Under the pieces are notes generated by a model. That model was not told where the DNA came from. It searched no databases and saw nothing but the letters and a program-made list of their open reading frames with translations. The position numbers and the translations under genes were made by a program. Source: Prevotella sp. DNF00663 (GTDB lineage Bacteria; Bacteroidota; Bacteroidia; Bacteroidales; Bacteroidaceae). From it: DNA of 64,000 bases. This document shows positions 37,227 through 41,883 of the stretch, piece after piece (positions within the stretch are counted from its first letter, which is position 1; each line of letters opens with the position of its first letter). The stretch is from contig NZ_KQ960588.1 in the NCBI RefSeq assembly GCF_001553265.1, positions 1 to 64,000 of the forward strand, given 5' to 3'.

Positions 37227-39647
37227 TTACGAGAATCCCAAAAGAGTTCCTAGCTGATATGTGAGTGCAGAGACTACCCATGCCAATCCTGTTGTATATA
37301 CCGCTGTGAAAATAGCCCATTTCCAATTACCAGTCTCTCCTTTGATTGCAGCTATCGTTGCAATGCAAGGGAAATAGAGTAACACAAACAACAAAAAACT
37401 ATAAGCGGCTAAGGGGGTAATCCCATCTGCTACCATCATTCTTCTCAAACGCGTATATTTTGCTGCATCAGAGTTATATGAATCATCATCAGCAAAACTA
37501 CTGTCATCACTATAAAGCACTCCCATGGTGCTGGCCACGATTTCCTTTGCCCCAACACCTGCTAGCAAACCAACATCTAATTTCCAATCAAAACCTTGAG
37601 GACGGAATATAGGTTCTATAGCTTTACCTATCCTGCCAATATAGCTCTGTTCTTGTTGCTGACTAGCAGACAATTCATCATGATGCGGAAAATATCCTAA
37701 AGCCCATACTATAATGCTTGCCACCAAGATGATACCACCCATTTTTTTTAGATATTGTTTACCTTTTTCCCATGTATGTCGACCAATTGCTTTCCACGTA
37801 GGGAAACGATAGGGGGGAAGCTCCATCACAAAGGGGGTGTCTTCTCCTTTCACTAGTACTTGAGAATATAGCCGACCGATAATTATTGCCATCAAAATTC
37901 CAATAAAATAAAGTGACATCATAACGGTAGAGCGGTATTCGGCTGCAAAGAATGTCCCTATAATCATAATATAAATAGGCAGTCTGGCCGAGCAACTCAT
38001 CATCGGAAGAACGAGCATGGTAATAAGCCTAGAACGTCTACTCTCAATGGTTCGCGTAGCCATGACAGCAGGAACATTACACCCAAATCCCATTATCAAT
38101 GGAATAAACGACTTTCCATGCAATCCCATCTTGTGCATAAGTTTATCCATTATGAAAGCAGCTCTGGCCATATATCCCGAATCTTCCATGTATGAGATAA
38201 AAAAGTAGAGAATCAATATCTGCGGTAGAAAGACTATCACAGCGCCAACACCACCAATGATTCCATCGGAAATCATGGCTTTCAGAGGCCCGGCTGGTAA
38301 CACCTCACTTACAGTTTGACCAAGCCAAGTAACTCCCGCCTCAATCAAATCCATCGGATACTGTCCAAGGGTGAATGTTACTTCAAACATCAACCATAAG
38401 AACAATATGAATATAGGAAATCCTAAATATCGATTGGTTATGATACGATCGAGCAGGTGAGTAGTCTGGTAAGTGTCTTTCTTATTACCTGTTGAATAGA
38501 GGGCTTCTTGCAATGCACCATGGATAAAACCATATTTAGCATCCATAATAGCCGTTTCACTGTCTACTCCAGTTTCTTCTCTCACTCTATCTTCAGCCTT
38601 TTTGCGTTCTGCAAAGATTTCCTCATCTTTATCTAGTGTTTTAATATACGATTCTACATCCTGATCATGTTCTAATAGTTTGATAGCCAAATAACGAGTA
38701 GAATACTTCTGACGAAGATCTATATTGCTTTTTAGATAATGCTGAATATGCAATATACCTGCCTCTATCTCGTGTCCATGATTGATATGGATATGGCGAA
38801 AATGTAGATTATCTCCTTCATTTCCCTCATACATATCAACTACCGCATCTAGGAGCTGATTGAGTCCACGACCATTCGTAAACGATGTCGGTATCATAGG
38901 TATCCCGAAGAGAGTGCCCAATTTGTCTTCATCAACATGGTCGCCCCGCTTCTCTACCTCATCATACATATTGAGTGCACATACCATACGTAAGTGCATA
39001 TCTATCAATTGGGTTGTAAGATAAAGATTGCGTTCTAAATTACTGGTATCTATGACATTGATAATAACATCTGGCATCTGCTCTATAATCTGCTTCCTTA
39101 CATACAATTCTTCCGGACTATAAGCAGATAGACTATAAGTTCCCGGTAAATCTACCAAATTGAAATGGTATCCTCGATGTTCGGTATGGCCCACTTTAGC
39201 ATCAACAGTTACACCGCTATAATTACCGACACGTTCATGTGCGCCCGAAGCAAAATTGAATAGAGAAGTCTTACCACAATTCGGATTGCCCACCAAAGCC
39301 ACATTGATAACTCGCCTTTTGGCTATTGCTGCCAACTCTAATTCGTCATCAGAAACATGTAATTCGTTTTCCGGAACAATAGAAGTTGTATAATCTTTAT
39401 CAGAACTAAAAACTTTAGCCTCCTTCTCACTCATCACTTCTATCATGGAGGCTTCACTCCTACGCAATGAAACTTCATATCCCATGACCTTATATTTGAC
39501 GGGATCTTGTAGGGGAGCATTGAGTAAGACCTCTACTTTTTGCCCTTTGATAAAGCCCATCTCTACGATGCGTTTTCGGAAACCGCCGTGTCCTGTTACT
39601 TTTATAATGATACCGTATTCGCCGGTCTTCAGATCTGATAACTTCAT
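37227..39647 (-). CDS. feoB: FeoA-FeoB fusion, ferrous iron transporter
   Basis: An 806-residue inner-membrane Fe(II) importer. Residues ~1-75 are a FeoA SH3-like domain (MKLSDLKTGEYGIIIKVTG; RIVEMGFIKGQKVEVL). The G domain follows with G1 GNPNCGKTSLFN (about residue 121), G3 DLPGTYSL and G4 NMYDE (NxxD type). The membrane part has paired gates (FLPQILILYFFISYMEDSGYMARAAF; FGCNVPAVMATR) and ends in several helices. FeoA-FeoB fusions are usual in Bacteroidetes. The start is at MKLSDLKTG; an 11-codon longer reading enters the promoter. The divergent neighbour is an exported protease fusion. Confidence 0.96.
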   Translation of the reverse strand: MKLSDLKTGEYGIIIKVTGHGGFRKRIVEMGFIKGQKVEVLLNAPLQDPVKYKVMGYEVSLRRSEASMIEVMSEKEAKVFSSDKDYTTSIVPENELHVSDDELELAAIAKRRVINVALVGNPNCGKTSLFNFASGAHERVGNYSGVTVDAKVGHTEHRGYHFNLVDLPGTYSLSAYSPEELYVRKQIIEQMPDVIINVIDTSNLERNLYLTTQLIDMHLRMVCALNMYDEVEKRGDHVDEDKLGTLFGIPMIPTSFTNGRGLNQLLDAVVDMYEGNEGDNLHFRHIHINHGHEIEAGILHIQHYLKSNIDLRQKYSTRYLAIKLLEHDQDVESYIKTLDKDEEIFAERKKAEDRVREETGVDSETAIMDAKYGFIHGALQEALYSTGNKKDTYQTTHLLDRIITNRYLGFPIFILFLWLMFEVTFTLGQYPMDLIEAGVTWLGQTVSEVLPAGPLKAMISDGIIGGVGAVIVFLPQILILYFFISYMEDSGYMARAAFIMDKLMHKMGLHGKSFIPLIMGFGCNVPAVMATRTIESRRSRLITMLVLPMMSCSARLPIYIMIIGTFFAAEYRSTVMMSLYFIGILMAIIIGRLYSQVLVKGEDTPFVMELPPYRFPTWKAIGRHTWEKGKQYLKKMGGIILVASIIVWALGYFPHHDELSASQQQEQSYIGRIGKAIEPIFRPQGFDWKLDVGLLAGVGAKEIVASTMGVLYSDDSSFADDDSYNSDAAKYTRLRRMMVADGITPLAAYSFLLFVLLYFPCIATIAAIKGETGNWKWAIFTAVYTTGLAWVVSALTYQLGTLLGFS

Positions 39648-39667
39648 ATTCCAATATCTATAACATG

Positions 39668-39675
39668 CAAAAGTA
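39668..39675 (-). promoter_or_regulatory. Candidate feoAB promoter
   Basis: TACTTTTG on the minus strand, an exact TAnnTTTG element only ~20 bases before the start codon, implying a very short leader. Confidence 0.5.
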
Positions 39676-39725
39676 AACAATAAACTTTGCTTTTGTTTTC
39701 TTATAATTCCATTTTTTATATAAAA

Positions 39726-39763: not shown

Positions 39764-39771
39764 TATATTTG
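39764..39771 (+). promoter_or_regulatory. Candidate promoter of the protease-PDZ-phytase-like gene
   Basis: TATATTTG, an exact TAnnTTTG element, 33 bases before the start codon. Confidence 0.5.
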
Positions 39772-39804: not shown

Positions 39805-41883
39805 ATGAAACTAAAGCTACAATATATATGGTTTTTCCTCCTGATCGTGGCATTCCCAAATGAGATTACAGCCGACGACAGTATTCCATTTAAGTACTAT
39901 GGGCATATATATTTTCAATCCGCTATCAACGACACCATTCCCTGTCAACTCATTTTCGACACAGGTGGTAACAATCTTTGTTGCATAGACTCAGTGTTCT
40001 TCGCACACTCCAAGTGGCATACTCGTAATATTCAAAAAGCAAATATTGGGGGAGGAGCCGGAAGGCTAACCGTTCCTCTCATTTACGAAGACACCCAAAT
40101 AAAACAAGGAGCATCCAATGTGCCATATCCTTATATTCCGGTAATACGGTTAAGAGATATTCTTGACTGCCATGCAGATGGTCTTGTTGGTATTCAAGGG
40201 CTTCATCATCGTCCCTATGAAATCAATTTTGAGCATCAATATTTTAAATTCAACACTGAATTACCAAAAGACTTATCCTCGTGGCAACGCGTTTTGGTGC
40301 GCTGCCATAAACAGAGAATATTTCTCTATCTTTCCGTTAAAATAGGAGATAAGACGATTAAAGGATGGTACTTGATGGATACTGGAAGCGGTGGTACCAT
40401 TGATTTTACAGCCCATACAACTTCCACTTATCATTTAGATTCCATCCCACGAAAGAAACGTATAACCGATATTACTAATTTTGGTGTGGGCAGCAAGGAA
40501 CAGGAATACTTTGTTGATATAAAAGCAGATCAAATTCTTTTATTAGGAAACGACACCATCAAGAATTGTACAGTGTCTTATCTCCCCGAAGGAGTAGGGG
40601 CTTTTAGCAAACAGGAATGGCTAGGAGTAGTAGGCAATGGGATATGGAGCGACTATAATATCATAGTAGATGAAGAAAGAGGATACCTTTATTTAAAACG
40701 ATTCAATAAAGAAGAGAACAGTGATGTCAAAGGCTATGATTACGGATTTCGAAATCGTACAGACATTTGCGATGGCTGGATAGTTTCCTCATTGGTAAGA
40801 GATGGGGATGCACGTAAGAGTGGTATAGAAATCGGAGATACCATCGTTGCCATTAATCACAAACCAGTAAAACGCCTCACATGGGACGAGGAATGGGAGA
40901 TAGACGACACACCAACTCAAGAAATTGAACTAAGAGGAAAGAATGGACACGCTAAACGCATCTTCCTAAAAGCGAAAAATTATTGGAAAGACGAGGAAGC
41001 GAATCACCCAACATACACGAAAATCAAAGTCAAAGAAAACTCTCAACAAGTATTTTCCAAGCAAATACCCGCAGGAGATTACAGTGGAATCAGCTATTTA
41101 GGCAATAATAGATATGCCGTCGTAGACGATAAGGCAAGCCCCGATGGTTTCAGTATCTTTCATATAAATATTGATTCTATCTCCGGAACCATTCAAAACA
41201 TAGAATTAGAAGCTATCAAAACAAGTGGGCGACCGAATAGAGATGGAGAGGGCATAGCCTACTGTAAAATTCGTAACTCGATTTTTATATCCGGTGAAAA
41301 AGATAATGTCATTAAAGAATATGATTTAAATGGACAACTCTCTGGTAATAATGTATTTATACCAGATTCTATAAAGCAAAGATTAGATAGCAATAGAGGG
41401 CTGGAATCTCTATCATGGAATGAAAATACACAACGCCTTTGGACTGCAACTGAAGCTGAAGATTGCCGAATGATAGAATATGATAGCAACTTAAGGCTTA
41501 TCAATGTATGGAAGTACAAAGTTGATCAAGCCACATCAGCAAAGAACTATGTAAATGGTGTTAGCGAAATATGTGCTTTAAACGATGGCCGTTTGCTAGT
41601 GTTAGAACGAGAAGTCATGATTCCGGAAAAGAAGATCGGAGCATGGGCAGAATGTAAACTCTATGAGGCACGCCCCATCAATAGACAGTTGGAAAAGCAT
41701 CTACTAACTAAGTGGAAGACTAAAATGAACATTACAAACCATTCTTTTGCCAACTACGAAGGAATGTGCCTAGGCCCTAAACTAGTTGATGGGGGACAGG
41801 TATTGCTATTGGTCACCGACTCCCAACATCGCTATAAAGGCATGCTCAAAGATTGGTTCAAAACCATCATAGTATATATATGA
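39805..41883 (+). CDS. Secreted aspartyl protease-PDZ-phytase-like fusion
   Basis: A 692-residue exported protein with three parts. After the signal peptide (YIWFFLLIVAFPNEITA) come two pepsin/retropepsin-like lobes, each with an active-site triplet: Asp52 in IFDTGGNN and Asp192 in LMDTGSGG, so one chain can supply both catalytic aspartates. Residues ~323-395 form a PDZ domain (SSLVRDGDARKSGIEIGD). Residues ~425-692 resemble the esterase-like/phytase-like beta-propeller family (SGISYLGNNRYAVVDDKASP, RDGEGIAYC, SRG-type GLESLSW, ANYEGMCLG). The frame is unbroken through all junctions. It is single-gene, divergent from feoAB. Likely periplasmic or surface; substrate unknown. Confidence 0.75.
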   Translation: MKLKLQYIWFFLLIVAFPNEITADDSIPFKYYGHIYFQSAINDTIPCQLIFDTGGNNLCCIDSVFFAHSKWHTRNIQKANIGGGAGRLTVPLIYEDTQIKQGASNVPYPYIPVIRLRDILDCHADGLVGIQGLHHRPYEINFEHQYFKFNTELPKDLSSWQRVLVRCHKQRIFLYLSVKIGDKTIKGWYLMDTGSGGTIDFTAHTTSTYHLDSIPRKKRITDITNFGVGSKEQEYFVDIKADQILLLGNDTIKNCTVSYLPEGVGAFSKQEWLGVVGNGIWSDYNIIVDEERGYLYLKRFNKEENSDVKGYDYGFRNRTDICDGWIVSSLVRDGDARKSGIEIGDTIVAINHKPVKRLTWDEEWEIDDTPTQEIELRGKNGHAKRIFLKAKNYWKDEEANHPTYTKIKVKENSQQVFSKQIPAGDYSGISYLGNNRYAVVDDKASPDGFSIFHINIDSISGTIQNIELEAIKTSGRPNRDGEGIAYCKIRNSIFISGEKDNVIKEYDLNGQLSGNNVFIPDSIKQRLDSNRGLESLSWNENTQRLWTATEAEDCRMIEYDSNLRLINVWKYKVDQATSAKNYVNGVSEICALNDGRLLVLEREVMIPEKKIGAWAECKLYEARPINRQLEKHLLTKWKTKMNITNHSFANYEGMCLGPKLVDGGQVLLLVTDSQHRYKGMLKDWFKTIIVYI

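Follow-up and report, generated by a model that had tools for sequence, protein, structure and literature searches.

One gene of the window, the analysed stretch of 64,000 nucleotides from Prevotella sp. DNF00663, combines a bilobed aspartic protease, a PDZ domain and a beta-propeller of the PF13449/YjiK type in a single chain. This gene is most likely a clean, lineage-specific fusion of two genes that related Prevotella-type genomes carry separately, and the probability of this reading, taken jointly with the mechanism proposed below, is put at about 0.7. Only the combination, seen so far in one genome, appears new within what was searched; both parts belong to known and common families.

The fused gene is one uninterrupted frame on the + strand (39805-41883), which encodes 692 amino acids followed by a stop codon. 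The domain reading made earlier from the letters, with two DTG lobes, a PDZ domain and a PF13449 domain in a single frame, was borne out together with its coordinates (Table 1). The AlphaFold2 model of the whole chain has a mean pLDDT of 90.5, with high values in all domains and the lowest in the linker. The hydrophobic stretch after the ATG at 39805 finishes near ITA/DD and is a plausible signal peptide; the model shows a helix at residues 2-15, and an N-terminal signal peptide is a feature shared by the stand-alone relatives. Export of the product through this peptide is predicted, and the fused protein is probably located in the periplasm, since a sorting tail is not evident. The upstream element TATATTTG is separated from the start codon by 33 bases, and its pattern fits the -7 promoter consensus of Bacteroidota, which makes it a suggestive match only. 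A conserved operon with the protease was considered and rejected: the neighbours are FeoA-FeoB on the opposite strand and a convergent YgiQ. The former gene (37227-39680, - strand) carries FeoA and FeoB domains within a single chain and is divergent to the fused gene. The search for plasmid carriage gave no match.

Table 1. Features of the fused gene and its upstream region (positions in the window)
Feature	Positions	Strand	Remarks
TATATTTG, match to the Bacteroidota -7 promoter consensus TAnnTTTG	39764..39771	+	Pattern check; suggestive only
Fused gene, entire	39805..41883	+	ATG at 39805, stop at 41881-41883; no internal stops
N-terminal signal peptide (putative), residues 1-23	39805..39873	+	Called by eye; lipobox Cys absent
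Aspartic protease lobe 1, residues 24-157	39874..40275	+	D52-T-G, LVG129
Aspartic protease lobe 2, residues 158-302	40276..40710	+	D192-T-G, VVG277
PDZ domain, residues about 312-394	40738..40986	+	W394 equivalent is the end of stand-alone relatives
Fusion-joint linker, residues 395-408	40987..41028	+	Model confidence minimal at 398-404
PF13449/YjiK-like beta-propeller, residues 409-692	41029..41880	+	Invariant acidic residues

The protease part carries sequence and fold features of the bilobed peptidases of clan AA: the chain has two DxG aspartates, each lobe has a hydrophobic-hydrophobic-Gly motif, and the lobes pack in a pepsin-like manner in the model. In aspartic peptidases, the DxG motif and the hydrophobic-hydrophobic-Gly motif together form the psi-loop of each lobe (PMC2761423). 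D52 of the window protein lies within LIFDTGGN (codon 39958-39960), and D192 within YLMDTGSG (codon 40378-40380). In an alignment of 22 sequences, the window protein and 21 relatives, D52-T53-G54 and D192-x-G194 are invariant, as are G129 (LVG) and G277 (VVG), so these motifs, placed on invariant residues, are not chance occurrences. Modelled alone, the bilobe reaches a pLDDT of 90.4 and a pTM of 0.87, and residues 1-279 of the model align as a single unit with pepsins and with the Bacteroides fragilis chain 9IY9 (Z 17-20). The best structural match is 9IY9 (Z 20.2 over 253 residues, 3.5 A); plasmepsins, renin and penicillopepsin give Z 17-18 over about 250 residues. For the whole chain, 9IY9 falls outside the best 50 Foldseek matches, and it was recovered by VIA-align and by the bilobe search. 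The pepsin-like arrangement anticipated by the sequence-only reading thus agrees with the predicted model, and because both lobes superpose simultaneously on pepsins, D52 and D192 should form a single active site. A dimer of one-lobe retropepsin units was rejected, as both lobes lie within one chain and are confidently packed. The lobes of the window protein are not recognised by Pfam, with no match to PF13650 (Asp_protease_2) at E up to 1; the same family is matched by 8 of the 40 aligned members (best 8.9e-07). In the PDB, the lobe profile finds Ddi1 at 7e-04 and 9IY9 at 0.03.

Such bilobed DTG/DTG proteases, often with a PDZ domain, are common in Bacteroidota. A profile search across the phylum, in 148 genomes, gave relatives in 46 of them, a few of the matches being to the PDZ domain only (e.g., G941, G949, G916). 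Of the 24 loci inspected in this set, 15 have two D[TS]G motifs within one frame, so that a bilobed chain is ordinary for the phylum. The contrast drawn earlier between this arrangement and the one-lobe units usual in bacteria does not hold here, as 9IY9 of B. fragilis is also already in the PDB. The protease-PDZ paralogues at L049:160-1362 (+) and L051:1444-2643 (-) have lost the DTG motifs, and the former adjoins an intact copy, which suggests inactive partners. At L079:1422-10738 (+), about eight similar exported proteins of ~270 amino acids flank two bilobed proteases, and the two members of this run that were scanned both match Porph_ging / PNGase_F-II_N.

The PDZ domain of the window protein scores 22.7 bits against PF00595, for which the Pfam cut-off is 23.2. 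The same family is matched by 17 of the 40 aligned members (best 5.3e-08), and the family profile finds the PDZ domain of DegP at 1.8e-09.

The C-terminal part belongs to PF13449 (7.3e-36, 125 bits against a cut-off of 27.6, residues 422-672) and also matches PF06977, the SdiA-regulated (YjiK) family, with 44 bits against a cut-off of 21. A profile built from 24 propeller relatives has one convincing match in the PDB, YjiK (3QQZ, 7.2e-06), and residues 406-690 of the whole-chain model superpose on 3QQZ with Z 21.3, so that the propeller fold expected of this part is found in the model. By fold, glutaminyl cyclases score only slightly below YjiK (Z 19.3-20.8); by sequence, the profile matched none of them in the PDB at E up to 5. 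The invariant acidic residues of the propeller (E482, E498, E534, E550, E601 and E652) may form a central metal site. The earlier description of this part as phytase-like stands as regards family membership and propeller fold; "phytase" is merely a database name, and the closest solved relative is YjiK. At E up to 1, the window protein matches none of the classical phytase families of Pfam, and a true phytase in the C-terminal part is, the family name aside, unsupported. With YjiK as the closest solved relative and these families unmatched, the phosphoesterase or lactonase activity proposed for this part is unproven.

The two halves of the fused protein exist as separate genes in related genomes. 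Stand-alone protease-PDZ proteins, found in a dozen related genomes, are exported chains of ~390-400 amino acids that end at the equivalent of W394, and those of the genus are 40-51% identical to the protease-PDZ part of the window protein. Stand-alone propellers of ~300-350 amino acids each begin with a signal peptide and are homologous to the window protein from near residue 404-414 onward. Two genomes (G012, G333) contain both the protease-PDZ and the propeller as separate genes on different contigs. In the genome of the window, the fused gene is the single match, and a second copy of either half is absent. The joint is in frame and lies exactly between the domain ends; only the stop codon of the protease and the signal peptide of the propeller are missing. 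No second fusion was found in about 800 distinct Bacteroidales genomes, covered by partly overlapping draws of 100 genomes, 399 of the family and 388 of the genus for the full-length protein and 398 of the genus for the protease half. These searches agree with the earlier remark that the combination is not known as a described system, and the literature terms used returned no work on a protease-PDZ-propeller architecture. A search with a mixed alignment also gave no further fusion, a weak result, as the alignment collapsed to a model of 321 positions, mainly of the propeller.

The gene order around the propeller suggests how the fusion may have arisen. Five genomes have a stand-alone propeller adjoining ygiQ, the arrangement of the window, and the ygiQ side of the locus in G052 is collinear with that of the window. 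These neighbours suggest that a resident propeller gene received the protease-PDZ at its 5′ side and lost its own signal peptide. Since the tree did not recover the YgiQ-adjacent propellers and the propeller of the window as one clade, this direction is only suggestive. In G052, a weakly PP2C-like gene (L069:8461-9261, - strand), absent from the window, is placed between the propeller and ygiQ, and a gene with a similar start is present in G004.

The propeller was also observed with other partners. In the same genus, a PAP2 phosphatase precedes the propeller at L121, L122 and L125 and follows it at L011, L027, L123 and L126. At L127:2843-4999 (-), GDSL-type hydrolase domains are followed by the propeller in one frame of 873 codons, and at L083:1079-3442 (-) the propeller is followed by a GH43-like domain, below the Pfam cut-off, in a protein of 788 amino acids. 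With such varied partners, PAP2 on either side, GDSL and GH43-like, the propeller looks like a mobile accessory module. A homologue of the bilobed protease at L088:2300-4450 (-) is located behind a TraB/PrgY/GumN domain, and its second lobe carries DMG (QMDMGSG), not DTG. Together, the propeller fusions and this TraB/GumN-protease fusion indicate that both halves are readily recombined modules.

In the proposed mechanism, residues 24-302 would act as a bilobed aspartic endopeptidase formed by one chain, with water activated by D52 and D192. By analogy with other exported bacterial proteases, the PDZ domain probably serves to select or present peptide segments that are unfolded or C-terminal. 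A flexible linker of 14 residues would tether the YjiK-like propeller, which is most likely an independent accessory module whose invariant acidic residues may bind a ligand or calcium. The propeller would bring the protease close to the propeller's ligand and would be unnecessary for building the protease site.

With a single assembly, of 93 contigs, showing the fusion among about 800 genomes, a joining error, in which two loci of the same genome were connected in silico, is possible. It is very unlikely, however, given the precision of the in-frame joint between the domain ends, the lack of any remaining copy of the protease-PDZ or the propeller in other parts of the assembly, the collinearity of the flanking ygiQ side with a relative, and a base composition that is uniform over the joint, where the halves agree in GC/GC3 (0.397/0.357 in one and 0.384/0.351 in the other). 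Somewhat less improbable, and still unlikely, is a coupled pair of enzymes in which the products of cleavage by the protease become substrates of the propeller, for example in a glutaminyl-cyclase-like or phosphoester-cleaving reaction. The fold similarity of glutaminyl cyclases to YjiK, the recurrence of PAP2 phosphatase as a fusion partner, and a metal site that the invariant acidic residues could make are all consistent with such coupling; the sequence profile, in contrast, convincingly finds only YjiK and no glutaminyl cyclase, classical phytase families are unmatched, and the partners in other propeller fusions have unrelated substrates. Because the propeller is repeatedly fused to hydrolases of unrelated substrates, an accessory role fits better than a dedicated protease-phosphatase pathway, although catalysis by the propeller is compatible with the same pattern.

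The protease part could also be a non-catalytic binding remnant and the whole protein a scaffold, a reading favoured by the loss of DTG motifs in some paralogues of the genus (L051 and the first copy of L049). For the window protein this is very improbable, since it retains the two DTG and the two hydrophobic-hydrophobic-Gly motifs, which do not vary among the aligned relatives. The boldest idea, that the fused protein works as a periplasmic cut-and-process enzyme whose protease frees peptides and whose propeller catalytically modifies the new ends, is the least probable and highly speculative; if it were true, the poorly understood PF13449/YjiK propellers would gain an enzymatic role on peptides. 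The fused protein naturally connects two exported Bacteroidota families whose role is poorly understood. The wider pattern outweighs the single gene: fusions of the propeller with unrelated hydrolases have arisen several times, with the partner on one side or the other, and they make its function, as a binding module or an enzyme, directly testable.

Among known systems, pepsins of family A1 share with the window protein the same overall fold and two lobes per chain, each with DTG and a hydrophobic-hydrophobic-Gly motif, but a sequence-level match is absent, and the profile reaches Ddi1 and retropepsin-like chains first. The bacterial pepsins reported in PMC2761423 are predicted there to be intracellular, whereas the window protein is predicted to be exported. 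The secreted retropepsin-like RloA proteases of Pseudomonas are likewise exported bacterial aspartic proteases with DTG; they differ in having one lobe per chain and form dimers in the crystal and in solution, with DTG at the dimer interface (PMC12239564). On the propeller side, the profile alignment shows that E. coli YjiK (3QQZ; SdiA-regulated family) and PF13449 proteins have D-x-E, S-x-E-x-D and G-x-E motifs in common, but the PDB chain of YjiK consists of just the propeller, without a protease. The stand-alone protease-PDZ proteins of the genus (G012, G333) have the same lobes, motifs and PDZ domain, but end at W394 with the propeller absent. The "Exported protein" or putative endopeptidase of Bacteroides fragilis (9IY9; PDB, 2025) differs in its 13% identity, in the N-terminal region ahead of the bilobe (residues 159-437) and in its 420-residue chain without the propeller; it resembles the window protein in the bilobed fold within one exported chain and, according to the profile alignment, in a DTG in each half.
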